Source: a virus
Virus record (IMG/VR): IMGVR_UViG_3300033571_027679
Coordinates: 1 to 37,782 of that record
DNA: 37,782 nt
Strand: one strand, 5' to 3'
How positions within the stretch are numbered: position 1 is the stretch's first letter; each line of letters begins with the position of its first letter. The notes below the pieces were generated by a model, which was not told the origin of the DNA, searched no databases, and saw only the letters and a list, made by a program, of their open reading frames with translations. Below are positions 11,082 to 36,863 of this stretch, piece by piece. The position numbers were made by a program, and so were the translations under genes.

Positions 11082-12737
11082 ATGTCCTGCAAATATATCA
11101 TCGTGGCCGGCGGCGTCTTCAGCGGGACCGGCAAGGGCGTGTCTGCCGCAAGCATAGGCCTTCTTCTCAAACTCAGGGGGCACAGGGTCGACCTTATAAA
11201 GTTCGACCCGTACCTGAACCGCAACGCCGGGATCCTTGCCCCCAGCCAGCATGGCGAGTGCTTTCTGTGCGACGACGGCACCGAGACCGATCTCGACCTC
11301 GGACACTACGAGCGCATCGCCGGCATAAACATGAGCAAGTTGAACATCTGCACCTCGGGCACGCTCCACAAGGAGCTTGACGAGGAACAGGAAGCTGGCA
11401 AGTACCTCGGCCAGACCATTCAAGTCGTTCCGCACCTGACAAACAAGATCATCGACAGGCTGACACAGATCGGCTGTGACAAGGACGTGGTGGTAGTAGA
11501 GATTGGCGGCACTATCGGAGACAGCGAGAGCGACTCGTTCTTCGAGGCCGTCAGGCAGTTCAAGCAGAAGCTTAAAGACGATGTCCTAGTGGTCATGGTC
11601 GCACCCATACTGTGGGTGCCGACCATCAAAGAGCTCAAAACCAAGCCGCTTCAGAATTCCGTAAAAGATTTGCAGAGCTACGGCCTTCAGCCCGACATGA
11701 TCTTCTGCCGCTGCGACAGGCAGATACCAGAAAAGGTGCTCAATAAGATTTCGCAGTTCACAAACGTGCGCCGTGAGTGCGTTATCGAGGCTCCTGACGT
11801 GAGCACCATCTACAAAGTGCCGCTGGAGTTCTATGACCGCCACGTTGACGACCTGTTCGTTGACCTTTTTCGGCTTGGCAGGAGCTCTTGCAGGATTCAC
11901 AAGTACCGGGACTTCGTCGAACGCTACGACAATCAGGATGTCGAGACCGTCACCGTCGGTATCATCGGCAAGTATGAGAACTGCGACGAGGCGTACATCT
12001 CCCTTAAGGAGGCGCTGACGCACGCCGCCGTTAGCCAGAACATCAAGATCGAGATCAAGTGGATCAACGCCGAGGATCTAGAGAAATACAAAGATAACCG
12101 TGGATTGCACAAGTACTTTGAAGATGTCGATGGGGTGATTGTGCCCGGCGGCTTCGATGCCCGTGGTGTCGAGGGCAAGATCAAGGCGATCCAGTACGTT
12201 CGTGAGAAGAGGATACCTTTTCTCGGCATATGCCTCGGCCTGCAGATGGCCGTGGTGGAGTTTGCAAGGAATGTCTGCGGCATGAACTCGGCGAACAGCC
12301 TTGAGTTCGACAGCACCACCGCACACCCTGTCGTCCACTTCGTGGAAGGGCAAAAGGAGCTCAAGACCAAGTCCGCAAACATGAGGCTGGGCTCCTACGA
12401 GTGCGAGCTCAGCAAGGACAGCCTCGCACACGAGCTTTACGGCGGAAAGGTCGTGTCAGAGAGGCACAGGCACAGGTATGAGGTAAATCCTGAATACATC
12501 GAGACTTACGCAAAGAAAGGCCTCAGGGTCAGCGGCGTCAGCACCGCAGCCAACGGCCAGCCTGGGCTCATCGAGATCATGGAGCTGGACAGGTCACACC
12601 ACCCTTACTTCATAGGCACGCAGGCCCACCCTGAGTTCAAGAGCCGTCTAATGGCCGCAGCCCCGCTGTTCAAGGGACTTATCTCGGCAGCCGTCGCCGA
12701 CAGGAAGATCAGCGAAACCAAGATGCACACGGCATAG
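11082..12737 (+). CDS. pyrG: CTP synthase
   Basis: Makes CTP from UTP, ATP and glutamine. The N-terminal synthase domain shows the loop GGVFSGTGKGVSAAS (residues ~10-24) and the family motifs KFDPYLN, QHGE and DGTETDLDLGHYER. The C-terminal glutaminase domain has the nucleophile motif FLGICLGLQMAV and the catalytic His-x-Glu in AHPEF. At 551 residues it is full length (E. coli 545) and all key residues appear intact. The ATG follows CGGGAGTTCGGG. Positioned after nrdB-nrdA, it probably raises the cytidine pool that ribonucleotide reductase draws on. CTP synthase is uncommon in phages and is seen mainly in large genomes. Confidence 0.95.
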   Translation: MSCKYIIVAGGVFSGTGKGVSAASIGLLLKLRGHRVDLIKFDPYLNRNAGILAPSQHGECFLCDDGTETDLDLGHYERIAGINMSKLNICTSGTLHKELDEEQEAGKYLGQTIQVVPHLTNKIIDRLTQIGCDKDVVVVEIGGTIGDSESDSFFEAVRQFKQKLKDDVLVVMVAPILWVPTIKELKTKPLQNSVKDLQSYGLQPDMIFCRCDRQIPEKVLNKISQFTNVRRECVIEAPDVSTIYKVPLEFYDRHVDDLFVDLFRLGRSSCRIHKYRDFVERYDNQDVETVTVGIIGKYENCDEAYISLKEALTHAAVSQNIKIEIKWINAEDLEKYKDNRGLHKYFEDVDGVIVPGGFDARGVEGKIKAIQYVREKRIPFLGICLGLQMAVVEFARNVCGMNSANSLEFDSTTAHPVVHFVEGQKELKTKSANMRLGSYECELSKDSLAHELYGGKVVSERHRHRYEVNPEYIETYAKKGLRVSGVSTAANGQPGLIEIMELDRSHHPYFIGTQAHPEFKSRLMAAAPLFKGLISAAVADRKISETKMHTA

Positions 12738-23660: not shown

Positions 23661-24206
23661 ATGGCAACTGAGTATCTGAACAACAAGACTTTCGAGGCTT
23701 TGATCGTTCGCTTCCAGAAAGCCAAGAGGGAGAGGATCAAGTACCAGCTCTTCATGGATGACATCATCGCCACGCAACAGCGGACGATGCGCAGGGGACG
23801 CTTCAAGAAGCCGGCCCTGTGGTGCGAGGTGGAGGAGCTTTTCAAGCAGCTCGCTTTCGACTACGAGAACGCACAGGACGACTTGGCAATTGCCTTCTAC
23901 ACTTTGTCCGAGAACATAGTCCGCTACGCAAAATTTAACCTGATAGATCAGGACGACGCCATTCAGGAGGGCGTCATGATCTGCTTCGAGAAGATTGACA
24001 GGTTTGACCCCAAGAAGGGCAAGGCCTTCAATTACATGACGACATGCATCCTGAACCATTTCAGGCAGCTATACCGCACGGCTAGGAACTACAACGAGCT
24101 TAAAAGAAAGTACCTTGACTTCGTGCAGATACAAATGGATTGCAAGATACCTACCAGCAAGACAAAAAGTCTTTACAAGAGACACAACATCGTAAGCGAC
24201 GCTTGA
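23661..24206 (+). CDS. 55: gp55-like late sigma factor
   Basis: RNA polymerase sigma factor for late phage genes. A sigma region-2 pattern is clear in the C-terminal half: LIDQDDAIQEGVMICFEKID, then FDPKKGKAFNYMTTCIL, then NHFRQLYRTARNY, as in T4 gp55. At 181 residues it matches T4 gp55 (185) and lacks regions 3 and 4, as expected. In T4 it recognises TATAAATA with the help of gp33 and the gp45 clamp. Its presence supports reading the NATAWATA motifs in this window as late promoters. AAGGAG precedes the ATG. Confidence 0.88.
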   Translation: MATEYLNNKTFEALIVRFQKAKRERIKYQLFMDDIIATQQRTMRRGRFKKPALWCEVEELFKQLAFDYENAQDDLAIAFYTLSENIVRYAKFNLIDQDDAIQEGVMICFEKIDRFDPKKGKAFNYMTTCILNHFRQLYRTARNYNELKRKYLDFVQIQMDCKIPTSKTKSLYKRHNIVSDA

Positions 24207-24257: not shown

Positions 24258-24530
24258 ATGACCAAGAACTCTAAGAACATTTTCGACCAGATCGAGAACC
24301 AAGAACTCATCCAGAAGCTGATCGATAACGGCTACGGAAATCTTGTTGACGCCTTTCTGTTGAACGACTCGCAGGTCTACACCAAGCGTGGCCGTCTCAA
24401 CAAGTCGGGCGCCTGCAGAGTCCTCAAGTGCAAGCCCAAAGATTTAGAGGATGCCATCAAGGCCTGCCAAGAGTTGCTCCAGAAGGAACTTAAGGTTGAT
24501 GATGGCGGCTCCGACCAGAGCGAGGACTAG
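24258..24530 (+). CDS. Conserved small protein downstream of gp55 (90 aa)
   Basis: A 90-residue protein starting MTKNSKNIFDQ, with a conserved-looking core SQVYTKRGRLNKSGACRVL followed by CKPKDLEDAI and an acidic tail. I recall a similar core in T4-like cyanophage hypothetical proteins; the function is unknown. The layout (helix, basic loop, helix) could bind nucleic acid. A link to late transcription through its place after gp55 is only a guess. An upstream in-frame ATG at 24231 overlaps the -10 element and is not used. The stop shares CTAG with the convergent tube gene. Confidence 0.65.
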   Translation: MTKNSKNIFDQIENQELIQKLIDNGYGNLVDAFLLNDSQVYTKRGRLNKSGACRVLKCKPKDLEDAIKACQELLQKELKVDDGGSDQSED

Positions 24531-25081
24531 GTCCTTACTGCTTGCCAGTAGGCCCTGTCGTATCGAAGAGTGACGTCACAGGTGACCACCTCGCTGGACT
24601 GCATGTCCAGCTCGCCGAACTCAGCGTTCTGACACCAGACGTTTTCGAGTTTCCACCCCTCAATCATCGCCCCGCAGCCGTCCAGCAGGGAAAGATAGCA
24701 AGTAGACAACTTGAATCCTACATTGTAACCCAAACGTCCAATCCTATTGTCAATGGCGTAGCCCCATGCGCCAGTCTGCGGATTGTATATTCTCTTGATC
24801 CACTCAAACACGGGGTGGATATTATTGAAGTCGCCCACTTTTGTGTCGTAAAGTGTTAGATTGATCGGCTTCCAGTCCGGACGACCGGGGAAATACACGG
24901 TTTCAGTCACGTGCAGAGCTTCAATCTCTTTGAACTGAAGCGAGGGCCTAGCGCCCTTGGAATGGAAAAGCACGTTTGCTCCAACGGAGCTGACCTCGGG
25001 AATTTCCAGAATCCACCTATGCTTCCTCTTGAAGCAGGCGTTGTAGGTGTCAAGGGCCCCAAGACCCATCGATGTTGCCAT
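24527..25081 (-). CDS. 19: Tail tube protein, second gp19 paralog
   Basis: A 184-residue gp19-type tube protein. The opening MGLGALDTYNACFKRKHRWI parallels the neighbouring paralog and T4-like gp19. It is followed by ARPSLQFKEIEALHVTETVY, a GRPDWKPINLTLYD strand pair, and the C-terminal GELDMQSSEVVTCDVTLRYD. These proteins stack in six-fold rings inside the sheath. The paralog upstream differs widely in sequence, so the two diverged long ago. A strong terminator lies between them, so this copy may be made at lower level, for example as a special ring at a tube end. GAGGAAAG precedes the ATG. Confidence 0.85.
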   Translation of the reverse strand: MATSMGLGALDTYNACFKRKHRWILEIPEVSSVGANVLFHSKGARPSLQFKEIEALHVTETVYFPGRPDWKPINLTLYDTKVGDFNNIHPVFEWIKRIYNPQTGAWGYAIDNRIGRLGYNVGFKLSTCYLSLLDGCGAMIEGWKLENVWCQNAEFGELDMQSSEVVTCDVTLRYDRAYWQAVRT

Positions 25082-25159: not shown

Positions 25160-25735
25160 TTATCCGCAACCGAGGCAGGCGCAGGGTGTGAACTGCGATC
25201 CGCATCCGGGCTGGTAGGTGGCGTTGTGGAAGCGCAGGGTCAGCTCGACCGTGACTTCTTCGGAGCTGCTGTAGTCCAAGTCTCCGAAGTTGATCGAGGC
25301 TGGCCAGACGCCTTCCAGCGTCCAGGTTTCCATCGTCACGCCGCAACCATCGTACAGCTTCAGGGTGCCGGTTCCAGCGTAGCCGGAGTTTCCGGCGTCG
25401 CCTTTCCTAGAGCCCTGGTTAAGCTGGGTGGGGTTGGTGAAGTCGTAGATTCCGGCGAGCCAACTGTAGAGGTTGGCGATGCCCTGGGTGTTGCCGATGT
25501 CATAGTAGGTGACAGTGAGCTGCTCCCAAGTGCCCTTGCCGGGAATCCACATCTTGCCGTGGAGGTAGTTGATTTCCGTCTCCTCGATGGTGAGGCTGGG
25601 ACGGTTGGCGACCTTAACGAAGGCCTCCGGGATAGCCGAGGTGCAGTATGGCTTCAGCGAGAACGTCCACCGATACTTCCTCTTGAAGACTAAGTCGTGG
25701 TTGGCAAGCTGCCCCAGACCCATTTGTTGTGCCAT
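25160..25735 (-). CDS. 19: Tail tube protein gp19
   Basis: A 191-residue tube protein. Its N terminus (MGLGQLANHDLVFKRKYRWT) and C terminus (NFGDLDYSSSEEVTVELTLR) fit the T4 gp19 family. It ends in a Cys-containing tail (GCGSQFTPCACLGCG) not seen in T4 gp19, with four cysteines in 15 residues. It follows the sheath gene by 31 bases, the T4 order 18-19. AAGGAGA precedes the ATG. This is likely the main tube subunit, placed before the terminator. Confidence 0.9.
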   Translation of the reverse strand: MAQQMGLGQLANHDLVFKRKYRWTFSLKPYCTSAIPEAFVKVANRPSLTIEETEINYLHGKMWIPGKGTWEQLTVTYYDIGNTQGIANLYSWLAGIYDFTNPTQLNQGSRKGDAGNSGYAGTGTLKLYDGCGVTMETWTLEGVWPASINFGDLDYSSSEEVTVELTLRFHNATYQPGCGSQFTPCACLGCG

Positions 25736-30268: not shown

Positions 30269-30515
30269 GCGTGAGTTCTATGTCGCCGGAGAGATGGTTG
30301 CGTCATTCCGCAAGCCTGTTCTGCCGAGGAGGCTGCTGACGAAAGTCAGCAAGCCTCTCCTCTACGACCGCAAGACTACTTTTGAGGTGGAGCTTGCTGC
30401 TGTTGCTGCTGCGGCTGGGCTGGCTGCTGTCCCTGTTGCGGGGCGGGCTGCTGACCCTGCTGTTGACCCTGTTGTTGACCCTGTTGGGGCTGCTGCTGAG
30501 GGGCTCCCGGCTTAG
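30234..30515 (+). CDS. Small basic protein, antisense overlap with neighbour (93 aa)
   Basis: A 93-residue frame beginning MKAFRIQKPKNKREFYVAGE. GGAGGT sits five bases before the ATG, one of the best ribosome binding sites in the window. The first ~55 residues have normal composition. From residue ~48 on, the frame runs opposite the Gln/Pro-rich gene on the minus strand for 140 bases and becomes Ala/Val/Pro-rich, as expected from that antisense sequence. The N-terminal part probably is real; the tail may be a passive consequence of the overlap. Function unknown. Confidence 0.5.
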   Translation: MKAFRIQKPKNKREFYVAGEMVASFRKPVLPRRLLTKVSKPLLYDRKTTFEVELAAVAAAAGLAAVPVAGRAADPAVDPVVDPVGAAAEGLPA

Positions 30516-30792
30516 GTTTCTCCATGTTCGCCAGAAGGTCTGTGAACGTCTTCTTCATTTTCGGGTCTGCGACCTTAGCTGCGTTTGCCTTGAGCGTGTC
30601 CATGATCGCTTGGGTTGCCTTGTCCGGTATGGGCGGAGACGTGCCCTGTCCTGCCTGCGCAGTGTTGGCGGGCTTGGCCTGCTGCTGAGGCTGCTGGGCC
30701 TGGTTCTGGGCCGCCGGCTGCTGGTTCTGGCCGGCAGGCGCCGGCGCCTGCTCCCTGAGCATCTTCTGGTAGAACTCGTAGAATGACTTCAT
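30376..30792 (-). CDS. Gln/Pro-rich protein with capsid-targeting-like N terminus (138 aa)
   Basis: Starts MKSFYEFYQKMLREQAPAP. The opening fits the capsid-targeting pattern, with LRE at residues 12-14 as the protease site. The next ~35 residues are Gln/Ala/Pro-rich. A short helical block follows (KATQAIMDTLKANAAKVAD, then FTDLLANME), and the last ~50 residues are Gln/Pro repeats of the GQQQGQQ type. It is probably a packaged internal protein or a scaffold-like component with mostly unfolded sequence. GAGGTGAG precedes the ATG, within the end of the upstream gene. Confidence 0.65.
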   Translation of the reverse strand: MKSFYEFYQKMLREQAPAPAGQNQQPAAQNQAQQPQQQAKPANTAQAGQGTSPPIPDKATQAIMDTLKANAAKVADPKMKKTFTDLLANMEKPKPGAPQQQPQQGQQQGQQQGQQPAPQQGQQPAQPQQQQQQAPPQK

Positions 30793-30800
30793 GACTCACC

Positions 30801-31343
30801 TCAAACGATTTTGATTTTCAAATCCGGCTCTTTCTGCGTGACCTTGCCGTCTCCCGTGACGACATCCTCTTGGAACCTTTGACATATCAGCTCGATCCTC
30901 AGGGCGCCCCACATCTTGAACTCGCCCAGATTCCTTTGCACTATCACCCAGTTTTCCCTGAGGTGCGGCGTGAAAAGCCTCGAGCCTATTTTTGGTGGGT
31001 GGCCGACCGCCTTGAGCACCGACCTGTAGTTCAGCTCGAACTTCATCTCGTCAGGGGCGTCGATGCCGAACTGGTTCACTAGGTTCTGCGACGGTATTGG
31101 GTCGTAGGTGCACCATAGCTGGACAGGGTTGTTCGAGAAAAGCTTGTTCCGAGCCTCAAGGTAAATCGGGTCGATCATGTTCTGGGTGATGATGACCTCG
31201 TAATAGTATATTGGCGACCCGCCCCTTCTGATGGCCTCCTCATCCCATAAGTTGAAGAGGTCGTGGGTGCGGTCCAGAGGGTCGTACATCTGGATGCTGC
31301 CACGCAGCTTGTACGGCGTTCCATCGCAGTTCTTGAGGGTCAT
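30801..31343 (-). CDS. Conserved virion protein, likely neck/tail (180 aa)
   Basis: A 180-residue protein. The opening MTLKNCDGTPYKLRG resembles the N terminus of the 222-residue protein encoded at 32992 (MALKNKDGSVYRLSG). The body has YYYEVIITQNMIDPIYLEAR, then WCTYDPIPSQN, then HPPKIGSRLFTPHLRENW and VIVQRNLGEFKMWGALRI. I recall a similar order in T4-like cyanophage structural proteins near the neck genes; the T4 counterpart is unclear. It is co-directional with the two targeting-peptide genes around it, starting two bases after the upstream stop. Confidence 0.6.
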   Translation of the reverse strand: MTLKNCDGTPYKLRGSIQMYDPLDRTHDLFNLWDEEAIRRGGSPIYYYEVIITQNMIDPIYLEARNKLFSNNPVQLWCTYDPIPSQNLVNQFGIDAPDEMKFELNYRSVLKAVGHPPKIGSRLFTPHLRENWVIVQRNLGEFKMWGALRIELICQRFQEDVVTGDGKVTQKEPDLKIKIV

Positions 31344-31345
31344 TC

Positions 31346-32377
31346 TTAATCCTCGTCTTCTTCTTCTGCAACTGCGCTTGAGAACTTGCGCAAGTTGTAT
31401 ATGTCACCCATCGATTGCAGTACTGACAGGGTCGCTTTGGGAATCTCCTTCATGGCCTGCCTCACACGGTTCTCTGTGACCTGGAAGCCGAGCGGGAAGC
31501 TCCCGTCCGGCAGAGCCTTGTACTTTTCTATGACCATCGTGCTCGGGACGTCCTCGCCAATCAGGTCGTCCTGAACCATCTTGATTGCAAGGGTGAAGTT
31601 CTGCTTTTGGTTCTCCTTGGTCGCCTTGGCACGGCTTTTGGTCAGAGCCTCTATGATCTTCTTCTGGAGCTCGCTCAGGCGCATCCCGCTGCTCGGGTCG
31701 TCGATCACGCCCGGCTCACGCATCATGGTTCTGCTCGAGCCGTCTGACTTCTGCGCCATCTGGCTGACGGGTATGGCGGACCTCGGTATGTCCCTGTGCC
31801 CGTGTGCGACTATGAACTCCGACTTCTCCCTGAATGACGGCTTTCGTCCCCCGGCCGTGAGCACAGCGTACGCATCTTTGGCCTTGTCTTGATCTGGGAA
31901 TCCGGAGAAGTCGTTCTTGTTGCTAAGCTGATTCCATATTGACTCAACCCACCTGCCGCCAGATTTACGCCTGATGTCGACGAGCTTGTTCTTGATCGCC
32001 TGACCGATCACGCCGAGCACGGCCCTCTCGTATTCGGATTCATCGGGGATGGTCGCCTTGAACCTGGCAAAGCTGTCGACAAGCGAGCTGGGCTGCTTGT
32101 GCAGGTCAAACATGATCTCGCTCGTGATCGTCGTCACTGCGTCATCGAGGTCAAGTCCGGCTGCGACGCCCGACGACATGGTGCGCCGAACTAGGTTCGT
32201 TATCATGCCCTTGTAGTCGTGGTCGAACCCGGTTTTCGTCTTTATGAACTGGTTTACGTCCGTCGGCAGGTCGGAACCCACAGCTTCGCTCAGGATGCGC
32301 TCGGCGGGCAGGTAAACCTCCCGGTAAAACCTGCGCCATTCGCTCTTGAAAAGCCAATCCGAGAAATTGCTTATCAT
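31346..32377 (-). CDS. Sigma-factor-like protein with capsid-targeting-like N terminus
   Basis: A 343-residue protein beginning MISNFSDWLFKSEWRRF, with ERILSE at residues ~26-31 as a possible prohead protease site. Residues ~60-145 look like sigma70 region 2: LVRRTMSSG, GLDLDDAVTTITSEIMFDL, then a helix AVLGVIGQAIKNKLVDIRRK like the ECF pattern of a helix ending in ID-x-RR. Near the C terminus, QVTENRVRQAMKEIPKATL recalls a region-4 helix-turn-helix. If the peptide sends it into the head, it could be injected with DNA and act on host polymerase early. The sigma similarity is my reading of the pattern and is not proven. GAGGTGACC precedes the ATG at 32377. Confidence 0.6.
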   Translation of the reverse strand: MISNFSDWLFKSEWRRFYREVYLPAERILSEAVGSDLPTDVNQFIKTKTGFDHDYKGMITNLVRRTMSSGVAAGLDLDDAVTTITSEIMFDLHKQPSSLVDSFARFKATIPDESEYERAVLGVIGQAIKNKLVDIRRKSGGRWVESIWNQLSNKNDFSGFPDQDKAKDAYAVLTAGGRKPSFREKSEFIVAHGHRDIPRSAIPVSQMAQKSDGSSRTMMREPGVIDDPSSGMRLSELQKKIIEALTKSRAKATKENQKQNFTLAIKMVQDDLIGEDVPSTMVIEKYKALPDGSFPLGFQVTENRVRQAMKEIPKATLSVLQSMGDIYNLRKFSSAVAEEEDED

Positions 32378-32423
32378 GGTCACCTCGATGGTGTATCTAC
32401 ATAAGTCGTTTGTGTTTTTCAAA

Positions 32424-32455
32424 AGAAATGGGCCCGTGAAAAATCACGGGCCCAT
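32424..32455 (-). terminator. Strong terminator after the 140-residue virion gene
   Basis: A perfect 12-base stem at 32428-32439 and 32444-32455 (core GGGCCCGTGA with TCACGGGCCC) has a four-base loop. Reading the minus strand, TTTCTTTTG follows it. It ends the transcript of the gene at 32471 and separates it from the sigma-like gene downstream. The region 32378-32470 holds no gene. Confidence 0.88.
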
Positions 32456-32470: not shown

Positions 32471-32893
32471 TTAGTCGAGCGTAAGTTGTGGGACTATCTC
32501 GATCTCGCCACCACCTGCTGGTAGGGTGAACGGAGCCGTGGAGAATCTCTCCACCCACAGAAGGTCAGATGTGACACTCGTCATGAAGTAGCCGTAGCAG
32601 GTAACCGCTGTGGTGAAAGTGAATGTCTGTGCGCTGTAGGTTGCGACGTTCGTGCCTGCCGTGTTAGTGCCAACCGTCCAGCTTGGGCCGGTCAGCGTGA
32701 TAGCGGCGTAGCCGGCCTGAGTGGCCTCGGTCACGTCAGTGTATGCAGTGGCCTTCGTCGGCGTCAGGTTGTTGGTGTAGAGGTGCAGTATTTTGTTGTA
32801 TCCGGAGTCTGTCGCCCCGCCGTCGCCTCTGATGAAGCCGACTATGAACTTAAGGAACAGAACGTCCGCTGTGTTTGGAACTACTAGAGCCAT
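32471..32893 (-). CDS. Small beta-rich virion protein (140 aa)
   Basis: A 140-residue protein starting MALVVPNTADVLFLKFIVG. It continues with HLYTNNLTPTKATAYTD, then AGYAAITLTGPSWTVG and ATYSAQTFTFTTAVTCYGYF, and ends in GGGEIEIVPQLTLD. The Thr/Ala/Gly-rich beta pattern with LYxNNxTP and YGYFxT is common in small structural proteins of uncultured tailed phages, where it may decorate capsid or tail. AAGGGAGAAC precedes the ATG at 32893, so the longer frame from 32956 is not used. It is a single-gene transcript between a promoter-like CTATATAAAA and a strong terminator, suggesting high expression. Confidence 0.65.
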   Translation of the reverse strand: MALVVPNTADVLFLKFIVGFIRGDGGATDSGYNKILHLYTNNLTPTKATAYTDVTEATQAGYAAITLTGPSWTVGTNTAGTNVATYSAQTFTFTTAVTCYGYFMTSVTSDLLWVERFSTAPFTLPAGGGEIEIVPQLTLD

Positions 32894-32931
32894 GTTCTCC
32901 CTTAGCCTTGTATTCGGCGACGTAAGGTCGA

Positions 32932-32942
32932 TTTTATATAGA
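32932..32942 (-). promoter_or_regulatory. AT-rich promoter-like CTATATAAAA (minus strand)
   Basis: TCTATATAAAA lies ~40 bases upstream of the ATG at 32893, in the right place for a late promoter of the small virion gene. It fits the TATAWA core but not all of NATAWATA. It is back to back with a plus-strand motif 25 bases away. Confidence 0.4.
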
Positions 32943-32964
32943 ACAATTTTTTCCAAAATTGGCC

Positions 32965-32991: not shown

Positions 32992-33660
32992 ATGGCTCTC
33001 AAGAACAAAGACGGTTCCGTTTACAGGCTCTCCGGCCCAAATCCAGCTATGAAGACCCAGGCGACATGGGGCTCCTTCACTCTACACAACATGAAATGGT
33101 CATCCGAAAGATTCTCCAATCTTTCAGGCCAGATGCCGGAGGTTGAGAATCAGCGCTCCGAGCCCCAGCCGGTTGAGGTGGCAGACGACTTCGTAAACGA
33201 GCTGGAGAAGACCAAGTCGTCAATAAGAATTGTCGTGCCGGAGAAGTCCAAAAAGGCCAAGCTTGAAGACAGTGCGACCGATGACGACGCTCCGTTGGTC
33301 GAGAGGAAGGTCGAGGTTCACGAGGACAGCCGAGCTGACGAGCCGGCCTCTCCTGAGATAGACAAGGTTTTCATACACTGCCTGCCGGCTAAGGTAAGCA
33401 CCAAGAGGGATAGCCTGTACGGCGACGTATACAAGACCGTCAGGTACGAGGACCCCTTCTCTTTCGAGGGGGTCATCATATCCGAGAGCGACCTTGGGCT
33501 TGAGGTTTGGACTGACGCCGACATCAAGCGTGACTCTGTCCTGTACCCGAAGATCAACAGCAAGAGGTGGTGGAAGGTGCAGTCCTCAGAGCCCAAGGCT
33601 ATGGGCAGGCTTCTGACCTGCATGCCGAGCGACTACCAGCCTTCTTTCAAGCAGGACTAG
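32992..33660 (+). CDS. Conserved T4-like hypothetical protein (222 aa)
   Basis: A 222-residue protein opening MALKNKDGSVYRLSGPNP, followed by MKTQATWGSFTLHNMKW. The middle (~45-120) is charged and Ser/Glu/Pro/Val-rich. The C-terminal ~100 residues look folded: KVFIHCLPAKVSTKRDSLYG, then YEDPFSFEGVIISESDLGLE and INSKRWWKVQSSEPKAMGRL. Proteins with this N-terminal LKNKDGxxYxLxxPNP pattern occur near neck genes in T4-like phages as I recall, without a known role. The stop shares CTAG with the convergent 90-residue gene. Confidence 0.65.
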   Translation: MALKNKDGSVYRLSGPNPAMKTQATWGSFTLHNMKWSSERFSNLSGQMPEVENQRSEPQPVEVADDFVNELEKTKSSIRIVVPEKSKKAKLEDSATDDDAPLVERKVEVHEDSRADEPASPEIDKVFIHCLPAKVSTKRDSLYGDVYKTVRYEDPFSFEGVIISESDLGLEVWTDADIKRDSVLYPKINSKRWWKVQSSEPKAMGRLLTCMPSDYQPSFKQD

Positions 33661-33929
33661 CCGTTCTGCTGGGAAGGCACTATGCGTGCCGTGACTCCGA
33701 GCTTCTTGAGCTGATCTGCGTGATCCGAGACGCTCTTCATGTAGCCGGCCTCATAGGTGTCCGTGACCATTTTGAAGAACGCTTGAACGTCACCCTCGGT
33801 GACCAGCATCTGGCTCAGCCTGTCTATGATTGGCTCGTTCGGTTGGTATCTCTCCTTCAGAACCTCGAACAGAGCCTTCTTGACATAGTGCGACTTTGTG
33901 TTGCTGAGGTAGTCAAGCCATCCAGCCAT
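33657..33929 (-). CDS. Small helical protein after the giant internal protein (90 aa)
   Basis: An unrecognised 90-residue helical protein (MAGWLDYLSNTKSHYVKKAL, then YEAGYMKSVSDHADQLKKLG). The start overlaps the stop of the 964-residue gene as TAATG, so they are co-translated. The stop lies in a CTAG shared with the convergent gene. It may be a partner or chaperone of the large protein, judged by coupling only. Confidence 0.6.
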   Translation of the reverse strand: MAGWLDYLSNTKSHYVKKALFEVLKERYQPNEPIIDRLSQMLVTEGDVQAFFKMVTDTYEAGYMKSVSDHADQLKKLGVTARIVPSQQNG

Positions 33930-36823
33930 TACTGTATCCCCCTGTCACGCATCGAGGACTCAAGCGTTTCAATTGCACGCTTGTAGTCGTCCTCGGAGTA
34001 TGACTCCTTGTTGTCCACGAGAAACTTCTTTAGCTTGCGAAGGGCGGTTGGTATCGCCACACGGTGGTAGTTCTTGTTCATGGCGAGTTGGAAGTTTGCC
34101 TGGGGAGTCTGCTCACGACGCAGTTGCTGCCACGGCGTGGCCGTGACGGTGAGATTCCTAGGCTGCCCGGGCCTTGTCGCCGGAGCCGTCCTGATCTGCA
34201 TCTTCTTGTTGATGGCGTCCTGCGTCGCACGCAGGATTTTGGCCAGGTCTTGCTGCACGTCGGAAGCTGTGTTCCGAAGCCACCTAAACTCCGACTGGAG
34301 CTTCTGCTTGACGTCCGACAGGACAAAACGGCTCATGCCGCCGGCTGCTGGGGCGTATTTGGTCTTCATCTGCTCGTCTTGGTCGTTACCGCCGAGACGG
34401 CGAAGATCCTCATCGTAGCTCTGGTCGGCATACATCTTGGCGTAGTCTGTCTCGTCATCGATTCTTGCGTCAGAGGACAGCTCCAGCTTGCCGGTCTGGC
34501 CTGCAGCCTTGAGCTGTGACATGGCCTGAACCACCAGCGGATGACGCTGAAGGCTGGCAACCATCTTCTCGCTCTTCATGCCTGCCTCTATCCAGCTCTC
34601 GACTTGGTCGTCCGCAAACTGTCTTGCCTTCTCGGGGCTGAAGTCGGAATCCTTGGCGTGGACGTAGGTGTACAAAGCTTGCAGTATGTCGGCTGACTGC
34701 TCGGCGATCTGCTTCTTCTCGCTGACGATCCTCATGAGCTGCGCTGCGACATCGGGGCCAAGGTCAACACGGCTCTTGGACAGGGCGTCGACGCTCTGCT
34801 GGTCGGCCTCGTGGGCACGACGCCTTAGGACGGAGATTTCCTCTACCATCTTGCGGTAGTTGTGGAGCTTCCTGTCCTGCCCGTGCTCCAAAGGCCTTGC
34901 CTGTATGCTTGCGAACATCTCACGTGCTTGGTCGGTGAATGCCCTCAGCCTCCTGCTGCCGCCGCCCCAGTTCTTCTGCGCATAAAGGGATGTCTTGCTC
35001 TTGACGTAATCCTTCCTCGATCCCTTCTCGAGCAGGTCCTTGTTGTCGATGTCGAGCAGGATCGTCTGGTAGATGATCTGATGTATCTCAGGGACGCTCT
35101 GCAGCATCAGCGTGCTCTCGAACTCCGTGTTTCCGCCGCATCTGCCGCTCTCAACGCAGTCGAGGATTCCTCCAACGATGTCGTCGTACAATCCGGAGCC
35201 CTGCTCGGAGCTGAGGTTGTAGCCACGGCCTTCCTCGCCAGTCCTCGGGGCCACCCTGTATCCAACCTCCTGCTGGTCGCCGAAGATTTCGCCGTACTTC
35301 TTCTTGAAGCCCGGCGTGTGCTTCACCATGTGCTTGATGCTCTCGGTCCCGTAGTTCAGGTGAATCGACCCCTTGCCCTGCACGGACTTGCCGTACTGCT
35401 CGTTGCCGTCAACCTTGATGAAGTCCTTGGAGAAACCACGGAGCTTGTCCTCGGGATGAATGAGCACCTTGCGGGTCTTCTCTCGCCCGAACTCATCCTT
35501 GTACTTCTCGACCTTATAGTCGCTGGAGTTAAGCTTCCTGTAGAGGTGCGATGAGTTAACGACAGGAATCCATGACTCCTTCTCGACCACCCTATCGCCC
35601 TGCTTGACCTGAACCTTCTCCTTGCGGTAAGGGAGGAAAAGTGGCGGGTTCTTGATCTTTCCCCTTGCGTCGATGGTTGCGGAACGCTTCTCGTCGGGAA
35701 CTCCGGGGACGGGAGGCCCAAACAGCTTCTTGTTCCTCGCCATCTTCAGTAGCTGGGCCTCTGTTCGTCGCTTGGCTTCGGCACGCAGCTTCGGTTCAGT
35801 ATCGAGCCTCTCGGCCATGCGGCCGTCAGTCCTCCTCGCCTTGCGCAGCTTACTCATGATCCTCGCCAGTATCTTCGTCCTGTGCCATCCGACCGTGTGG
35901 GTGTCTTCCATCCCTGAAGGCATCCACTTGATGTCCGATCCGGCTGGCAGGTCGCCGAACATGCTGTGCGAGTTGAGCACAAGGAAAGACTTTAGCCTCT
36001 CGTGAAGGTTGTTGAGTTTCGGGAACCTGAGCCCCGATGTGCTGTCGCCGAAAACGCTCTCCTGATCAGGGTTGTTCGGGTCGAAGTCTATGGCCTCGAT
36101 CGGATTGCTCATGTCGAAGCCATACTCGCCCTGACCGGAGAGGCCGCTATCGGCGTGGTGCTCTATGCCTCCTGTCTGCTCCAGCTTGTGGTAGAACCTG
36201 TTGAGGAAGGGCTTGGCCATGATCGTTATAAGCTGCCTCGACCTGTTGCCACGCCTCTTGTCGGTCTCGGGGTCGTAGCTCGTGTCACGGAACGTGAACT
36301 CCTCGGGGTCGTTGCCTCCTGGCAGGTGGATGTTCTTGGCCTTGATGTGGTCGTGTGCGACCTTTTCTGCTATGTCGAGAATCTCCCTGTTTGGCAGCGG
36401 CCTGTCGCCGTGAGTCACGGAAGCAGGGTAGTCGCTGCGGAGCTCCTCGATCTTCCTCCTCGAAATCCTTGCTCCCTCTTCCAGCTTTCGCAGCTTGTGC
36501 CAAGCCTCGTCGGTCTGAGTTCTCAGCGCCTCGTATATCGCCTGCTTGAGCTGCTCGAAACCCAAGGTTATCTTGATCTCGTGCATCTTCTTGAGTCTCT
36601 CGAATAGCTTGCGGTAGCGCACATGCATAGCTTGGCCCCAGTACTCGTGGGGGAACTGCCGCAGGAACTCGATGTCGTCTGAGTCGATGTGCACAGCCTT
36701 TCTTGGCTTGTCCTTGTACTCGGCCATCTCGTTGAGAATGCCGAACTGCCTCTTGGCGAACAGCCTCACGGCGCCGTCCGCTAGGAGGTTCGAGTATAGG
36801 AACTCCCTGAAGTTAGTGATCAT
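33929..36823 (-). CDS. Giant protein with capsid-targeting-like N terminus (964 aa)
   Basis: The longest gene in the window, not recognised. It starts MITNFREFLYSN, matching the targeting-peptide set, with GILNE at residues ~28-32 as a possible protease site. The sequence is highly charged and mostly helical. A beta-containing middle (~380-480) contains PPLFLPYRKEKVQVKQGDRV. A coiled-coil-like block (~640-720) and a disordered stretch near 870-900 follow. No enzymatic motif is obvious. T4 packages the large ADP-ribosyltransferase Alt with a similar N-terminal signal; this may be a functional analogue with a different activity. AAGGTG precedes the ATG at 36823. It is divergent to gp13. Confidence 0.65.
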   Translation of the reverse strand: MITNFREFLYSNLLADGAVRLFAKRQFGILNEMAEYKDKPRKAVHIDSDDIEFLRQFPHEYWGQAMHVRYRKLFERLKKMHEIKITLGFEQLKQAIYEALRTQTDEAWHKLRKLEEGARISRRKIEELRSDYPASVTHGDRPLPNREILDIAEKVAHDHIKAKNIHLPGGNDPEEFTFRDTSYDPETDKRRGNRSRQLITIMAKPFLNRFYHKLEQTGGIEHHADSGLSGQGEYGFDMSNPIEAIDFDPNNPDQESVFGDSTSGLRFPKLNNLHERLKSFLVLNSHSMFGDLPAGSDIKWMPSGMEDTHTVGWHRTKILARIMSKLRKARRTDGRMAERLDTEPKLRAEAKRRTEAQLLKMARNKKLFGPPVPGVPDEKRSATIDARGKIKNPPLFLPYRKEKVQVKQGDRVVEKESWIPVVNSSHLYRKLNSSDYKVEKYKDEFGREKTRKVLIHPEDKLRGFSKDFIKVDGNEQYGKSVQGKGSIHLNYGTESIKHMVKHTPGFKKKYGEIFGDQQEVGYRVAPRTGEEGRGYNLSSEQGSGLYDDIVGGILDCVESGRCGGNTEFESTLMLQSVPEIHQIIYQTILLDIDNKDLLEKGSRKDYVKSKTSLYAQKNWGGGSRRLRAFTDQAREMFASIQARPLEHGQDRKLHNYRKMVEEISVLRRRAHEADQQSVDALSKSRVDLGPDVAAQLMRIVSEKKQIAEQSADILQALYTYVHAKDSDFSPEKARQFADDQVESWIEAGMKSEKMVASLQRHPLVVQAMSQLKAAGQTGKLELSSDARIDDETDYAKMYADQSYDEDLRRLGGNDQDEQMKTKYAPAAGGMSRFVLSDVKQKLQSEFRWLRNTASDVQQDLAKILRATQDAINKKMQIRTAPATRPGQPRNLTVTATPWQQLRREQTPQANFQLAMNKNYHRVAIPTALRKLKKFLVDNKESYSEDDYKRAIETLESSMRDRGIQ

Positions 36824-36863
36824 CTTGACACCTTGTGCTCTGGCCAATGTTCATCGTCTCAAG

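Follow-up and report, generated by a model that had tools for sequence, protein, structure and literature searches.

A leader-bearing, predicted sigma-like protein family in a variable head–neck gene slot of T4-like phages, and its possible role as injected cargo

Introduction

Could a T4-like phage carry a sigma factor in its head and deliver it with its DNA? The question is raised by a gene at 31346-32377 of a 37.8-kb virus fragment from a T4-like myovirus (37,782 nucleotides; the window, meaning the whole stretch of DNA that was analysed), for which a sequence-only reading had proposed a virion-packaged, sigma-like product. Known transcription control from the virion consists of a modifying enzyme, as with Alt of T4, or of a whole polymerase (N4, phiKZ-like). 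If true, a sigma in the virion would be a third and cheaper route, by which host RNA polymerase is reprogrammed without a packaged polymerase; it would offer an account of how early transcription could be under the control of some large T4-like phages as early as the first minute of infection, and it would be a new kind of cargo for the known T4 packaging route. T4 proteins enter the prohead by means of a capsid-targeting leader some ten residues long (PMC7697877), gp21 cleaves after L/I-x-E (PMC9026906), and the internal proteins of T4, which start MKTYQEFIAEA and MKTFKEF (T4 record AF158101), have little in common past the leader (PMC3012670). Jumbo T4-like phages encode sigma factors to recruit the host polymerase, according to the jumbo-phage passages of PMC7824862, and a packaged sigma factor is not described in those passages. 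No report of a virion-packaged sigma factor was found in a search of the open-access literature.

Methods

Relatives of the gene were collected by synteny, 44 loci via the tail-sheath-stabiliser and more via the neck protein. Sequence profiles were compared by hhalign with references made from five E. coli sigma factors and from RpoE relatives. Two AlphaFold2 models were made: the first from the window protein and 12 relatives (13-row alignment), the second, as a control, of the member from locus L098 from eight members, with the window protein and its nearest relatives left out. Models were compared with PDB chains by Foldseek and VIA-align.

Results

The gene and its surroundings

Intact and 343 codons long, the ORF is read from the minus strand, with its ATG at 32377, its stop ending at 31346 and the sequence GAGGTG just 5' of the ATG. 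The sequence-only reading had thus identified a real ORF, and the segments that it quoted lie in the product at residues 74-92 (GLDLDDAVTTITSEIMFDL), 131-138 (KLVDIRRK) and 299-312 (QVTENRVRQAMKEI). It had also stated that a normal gp55 is encoded elsewhere in the window, which was confirmed by a Pfam Sigma70_r2 match above the cut-off. As the gene lies between a head gene and a neck gene, its position is called the slot.

31346..32377, minus strand: slot gene, leader plus sigma-like domains, 343 aa (ORF and held-out HMM test)
32421..32454, minus strand: strong intrinsic terminator at the boundary of the upstream head gene and the slot gene (MFE -28.3 kcal/mol, z -6.6, then a T-rich run)
32471..32956, minus strand: head161, upstream head/neck gene, phrog_240-like (PHROG match E 1.1e-4), slot border
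30801..31343, minus strand: neck180, downstream neck gene, 180 aa, other slot border (69-93% identical in relatives)
23661..24206, plus strand: ordinary gp55-type late sigma factor (PF04542 E 5.5e-9 at 23922-24086)

Other genes in the window encode tail sheath, tail tubes, sheath stabiliser, an SbcCD-like nuclease, ribonucleotide reductase and a Dda-like helicase. Two adjacent tail tube paralogues lie at 24527-25081 and 25160-25735, both on the minus strand, and a 551-aa protein at 11082-12737 (plus strand) has a near full-length match to phrog_28378 (E 4e-166), the function of which is not annotated. Among the closest relatives of the window are an uncultured phage of 595 kb and contigs as long as 533 kb, and the lineage of the window therefore contains very large phages.

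A divergent family

The single window protein gave no useful match in Pfam, PHROGs, PDB sequences, INPHARED (tblastn) or IMG/VR, and no sigma match in the first three; the slot protein is without any curated-family match. The motifs picked out by eye are by themselves not significant, and the sigma likeness needs the family and structure prediction. With the relatives at hand, 13 slot proteins were found to form one family, each being recovered by an HMM of the remainder when held out in turn (the member from L002 was weak in this test, 0.015, once its leader was removed). The window protein was recovered by an HMM from the 12 others with E 2.4e-16, and with E 8.9e-12 when its first 12 residues were removed; against the family HMM it scored 41.3 bits, compared with 4.5 bits for the best of 200 shuffles. 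It is not a chance ORF. A fourteenth member (L004) lies outside the profile, yet gives E 2e-4 over both domains, with the best decoy at 0.11, and one contig (L084) carries two tandem copies of the slot gene. Identity to the window protein is 15-22% across the 13 aligned members, in which the F and W of the leader are invariant. As judged by sequence comparison, these slot proteins, at least 14 in number and highly divergent, form a new family, and their genes lie between two neck/head genes of related large phages. No stretch of the family is conserved enough for a family-based scan of IMG/VR, and the neck protein was not found in the bacterial and archaeal genomes searched.

Leader and predicted prohead protease site

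The sequence-only reading had described the N terminus as targeting-like, and the family bears this out. The F-x-x-W leader is present in 14/14 members, and L/I-x-E occurs within residues 9-44 in 13/14 (shuffle P 0.005; 26% of sequence windows elsewhere). In the strict form, L/I-x-E followed by A, G or S, the site is found in nine of the 14 members, whereas 3% of sequence windows in other parts of these proteins carry it; when V is also allowed in the following position, 13 of 23 distinct slot proteins carry it against 3.5 expected, a count reached by 0 of 5000 shuffles. In the window protein the predicted cut after residue 31 lies just ahead of the folded part, which starts at about residue 38-41, and the leader (pLDDT 47-54) is probably outside that part, given its low model confidence.

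32285..32377, minus strand: N-terminal leader, residues 1-31 (MISNFSDWLF...ILSE), capsid-targeting-like; motif common to all members, big972 and PQ138
32282..32293, minus strand: predicted prohead protease site LSE↓A, residues 29-32 (ILSE↓A, cut after 31), from the T4 gp21 motif and enrichment tests
33929..36847, minus strand: big972, large leader-bearing protein, likely start MITNFREFL, then LNE↓MA
30376..30792, minus strand: PQ138, P/Q-rich, leader-bearing (MKSFYEFYQKMLREQ)

A leader of similar type, F-x-x-F/Y, is carried by 22/24 relatives of big972 and by 11/13 relatives of PQ138. It was absent from sheath, sheath stabiliser, head161 and a 73-aa protein in the relatives compared; leader and site together were practically absent in neck, sheath, gp3-like and other tail/neck genes, and three other neighbour genes had one or two chance-like leader matches each. 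About half of the p287 proteins match the leader pattern via a fixed KYRTWY, with no protease site after it (one exception in 21), and were not counted. A T4-type prohead protease (PF03420, Peptidase_S77) was found in 7/15 related contigs, including two that carry the slot family (L029 and L094).

In big972, which is variable, the leader NFREFL is followed in nearly all relatives by xxE-MA, a probable protease site, and by its sequence this protein, too, is a candidate head-core component or injected cargo. PQ138 reads MLKE↓AAP in some relatives; it is a probable processed head-core protein, either cargo or scaffold.

Variability of the slot

Where the neck protein is 69-93% identical to that of the window, identity of the slot protein falls to 22-31% (not counting four partial alignments). 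The slot is empty in 18 of 50 distinct loci, and the slot gene is therefore dispensable; many other loci hold one ORF with the same N-terminal pattern. Fast divergence beside a stable neck protein is expected of a host-facing effector, and this divergence, together with absence from collinear loci, favours an accessory role directed at the host over a structural role.

Very long leader-bearing slot proteins (~960-1090 aa) were seen at L017 5198-8068, L023 3646-6915, L027 4427-7327 and L055 6053-9004. Sigma likeness could not be demonstrated for these or for the slot occupants of middle length (440-580 aa), nor were the longer occupants linked to the family with confidence; the exception is the L023 protein, a short part of which matches the family's C-terminal domain (E 2.8e-5; weaker in another test). 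Other inserts, judged by eye, were UDP-galactopyranose-mutase-like (L175 3223-4368, also L174 and L177), homing-endonuclease-like (L111 8711-9589) and methyltransferase-like (L108 9306-9965). With such varied inserts between head and neck genes, the slot looks like an insertion hot spot.

The products of 32992-33660 (plus strand) and 30801-31343 (minus strand) have similar N-termini (MALKNKDGSVYRLSGPNP and MTLKNCDGTPYKLRGSIQ, respectively) although encoded on opposite strands, and the same was seen in relatives; the common N-terminus is possibly a duplicated docking peptide.

Likeness to sigma factors

The following features were assigned to the folded part.

31955..32269, minus strand: sigma region 2-like domain, residues 37-141 (holds GLDLDD... 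and KLVDIRRK), from VIA-align to sigma28; no significant sequence-profile support
31397..31678, minus strand: sigma region 4-like domain, residues 234-327, from hhalign and the region 4 match of the L098 model
31442..31483, minus strand: QVTENRVRQAMKEI, residues 299-312, aligned by hhalign with RpoS region 4.2 (GLTRERVRQI)

When the family was compared by hhalign with the five E. coli sigma factors, both domains were aligned in order with a score of 28.4 (best column shuffle 13.5, best block shuffle 22.8; 0/150 of each as high). The C-terminal half gave E 5.9e-4 with the sigma alignment, again with 0/150 shuffles as high, and the N-terminal half was not above shuffles in the HMM-HMM comparison. 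The second alignment by itself was not significant against the sigma profiles (8/150 block shuffles as high). In Pfam, the best match of the family consensus was Sigma70_r4 (E 0.0046; 16.9 of 24.1 bits), followed by two general helix-turn-helix (HTH) families and ECF sigma (0.011; 16.1 of 21.1 bits), all under the cut-off, and the window protein had no match over the curated cut-offs of PF04542, PF04545 and PF07638. Because these scores lie under the Pfam cut-offs, the slot protein is called sigma-like and is not placed in the Sigma70 family. When PDB sequences were searched with the family profile (hmmsearch), the matches were designed helical bundles and NusA, and no sigma factor was among them.

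In the first model (pLDDT 74.8 overall, domains mostly 80-94), a disordered linker connects two confidently predicted helical domains. In a Foldseek search of 350,542 PDB chains, nearly all of the 50 matches listed for it were sigma factors (sigma32, sigmaS, primary sigmas) that matched both domains in colinear order, with 0.077 as the best E; neither model reached a structural E below 0.001. By VIA-align, window residues 37-141 lie on sigma28 region 2 at 2.6 A over 76 residues with Z 7.0, which is under 8, and between helical proteins a Z of less than about 13 may come from a common arrangement. Whole-length rows of the first model had a large rmsd because the domains are arranged differently. 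In region 4 of the window protein, the two HTH helices are separated by an insertion.

Foldseek gave mixed matches for the L098 model. By VIA-align, 47-48 of its best 50 among 988 aligned chains (1000 candidates) were sigma factors, although these numerous PDB entries represent a single family and not many independent matches. The model leads with region 4 of the ECF factor SigL (Z 8.0), lies on SigW region 4 at 2.2 A over 63 residues, and matches RpoE over both domains (Z 6.9) and AlgU also over both; these Z values fall under the same caution. From the VIA-align rankings, region 2 was assigned from the first model, region 4 from the L098 model and their order from both. Among predicted structures of viral proteins, Foldseek gave nothing informative: two phage proteins annotated as sigma ranked 6th and 28th, with E ~1 and ~3.

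Sigma regions 2 and 4 had both been claimed from the sequence, with structure comparison as the proposed check. The region 4 likeness is supported in prediction by fold and sequence profile alike; the region 2 likeness comes from the predicted fold and was not borne out by sequence. The structural check was in favour to the extent that sigma factors dominate the matches, with the best E as given above, and the predicted models did not show the outcome named beforehand as adverse, a fold with no relation to regions 2 and 4 of sigma.

Discussion

Taken together, the data partly support the packaged-sigma idea, by a predicted sigma-like two-domain fold in sigma order and a T4-style leader with a protease site. 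The slot protein would be a T4-type head-internal cargo, the leader of which would bring it into the prohead core, where a T4-type prohead protease, as the motif suggests, would cut after ILSE31. The mature protein, with its two predicted sigma70-like domains (37-141 and 234-327), would stay in the head, be ejected with the DNA and, in what is the least certain step, bind core RNA polymerase and direct or bias it toward phage early promoters before phage expression; the separate gp55 would serve late transcription. A constant leader on a variable body fits the T4 internal proteins (PMC3012670). To this full chain, a packaged, cleaved and ejected sigma-like protein that steers host RNA polymerase, we give somewhat less than an even chance, and the general form of the proposal, that T4-like large phages load a cleavable sigma70-like factor into the head, inject it and reprogram the host polymerase at time zero, we put a little under that level. 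Most single statistics are sub-threshold and region 2 lacks sequence support, which speaks against the sigma reading, and some slot occupants of other phages have the leader and are not demonstrably sigma-like.

The same cargo might act as a packaged mimic, which occupies core RNA polymerase or promoter DNA and shuts down host transcription, or might be a DNA-binding internal protein, in either case without initiation. Very fast divergence and dispensability fit such an effector directed against the host, sequence support is best for the domain that reads the -35 element while region 2 is weak, and T4 Alt provides a precedent of a packaged protein acting on RNA polymerase (PMC9026906). A pure decoy would not need both domains, however, and each of the two model sets predicts the pair in sigma order; we regard this explanation as unlikely, though the likeliest of the rivals.

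It is quite unlikely that the product is a head-core or neck assembly protein with helical domains of chance sigma likeness, for example one that couples packaging and late transcription. The gene does sit between head/neck genes, and T4 gp55 interacts with the terminase gp17 (PMC3012670), but the gene is missing from over a third of the distinct loci in otherwise collinear neck clusters, and its low identity beside a well-conserved neck protein is unlike a structural part.

The sigma likeness might also be an artefact of a helical AlphaFold2 model, the protein being an unrelated helical cargo with a generic HTH; most tests are indeed sub-threshold, and with the consensus other HTH families score nearly like Sigma70_r4. 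Against this, the HMM-HMM score was above all 300 shuffles, and sigma factors, a hypothesis fixed beforehand, top both structural rankings, from alignments that are disjoint as to the window protein and its nearest relatives (the first also contained the rows of the second). This explanation is improbable.

Least probable of all is an ordinary second sigma that acts unpackaged in the same infection and has a leader by incidental likeness: jumbo T4-like (group 2) phages do encode more than one sigma type (PMC7824862), but the leader F and W are invariant while the rest is mostly < 30% identical, the same leader type is found on two neighbouring gene families, and the protease site is enriched at the leader end.

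With its leader and variable body, the slot also offers a way to look for further injected effectors in large uncultured phages: an F-x-x-W/F leader, then L/I-x-E, between neck genes.

Among known systems, the T4 internal proteins IPI, IPII, IPIII and Alt are alike to the slot protein in a short N-terminal leader, an L/I-x-E site, a variable body and the occurrence of a T4-type protease in the lineage, and Alt, once injected, in addition acts on the RNA polymerase of the host (PMC9026906). The slot protein, a putative head protein, differs by its F-x-x-W leader, by the ~20-34 residues to the site and by its cargo, which is predicted to be sigma-like, whereas that of T4 is an ADP-ribosyltransferase or nuclease inhibitor. 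With the Sigma70 factors (sigma28, sigma32, sigmaS, RpoE, SigL, SigW) it shares the predicted order of region 2-like and region 4-like helical domains and an HTH that aligns with region 4.2; it departs from them in its sub-cut-off sequence scores, a long low-confidence linker, the HTH insertion (in the window) and the head-targeting leader. The T4 gp55-type late sigma is likewise phage-encoded, in a T4-like phage thought to use the host polymerase, but the window has its own gp55, with which the slot family shows no HMM-HMM similarity. In Staphylococcus phage fRuSau02 a sigma was detected with particles by mass spectrometry, and was judged unlikely to be structural, host RNA polymerase having been co-isolated (PMC5618024). 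With the virion RNA polymerases of N4 and phiKZ-like phages the slot protein would share immediate control of transcription from the virion; those phages package a polymerase, whereas the slot protein would be a specificity factor for the host enzyme.
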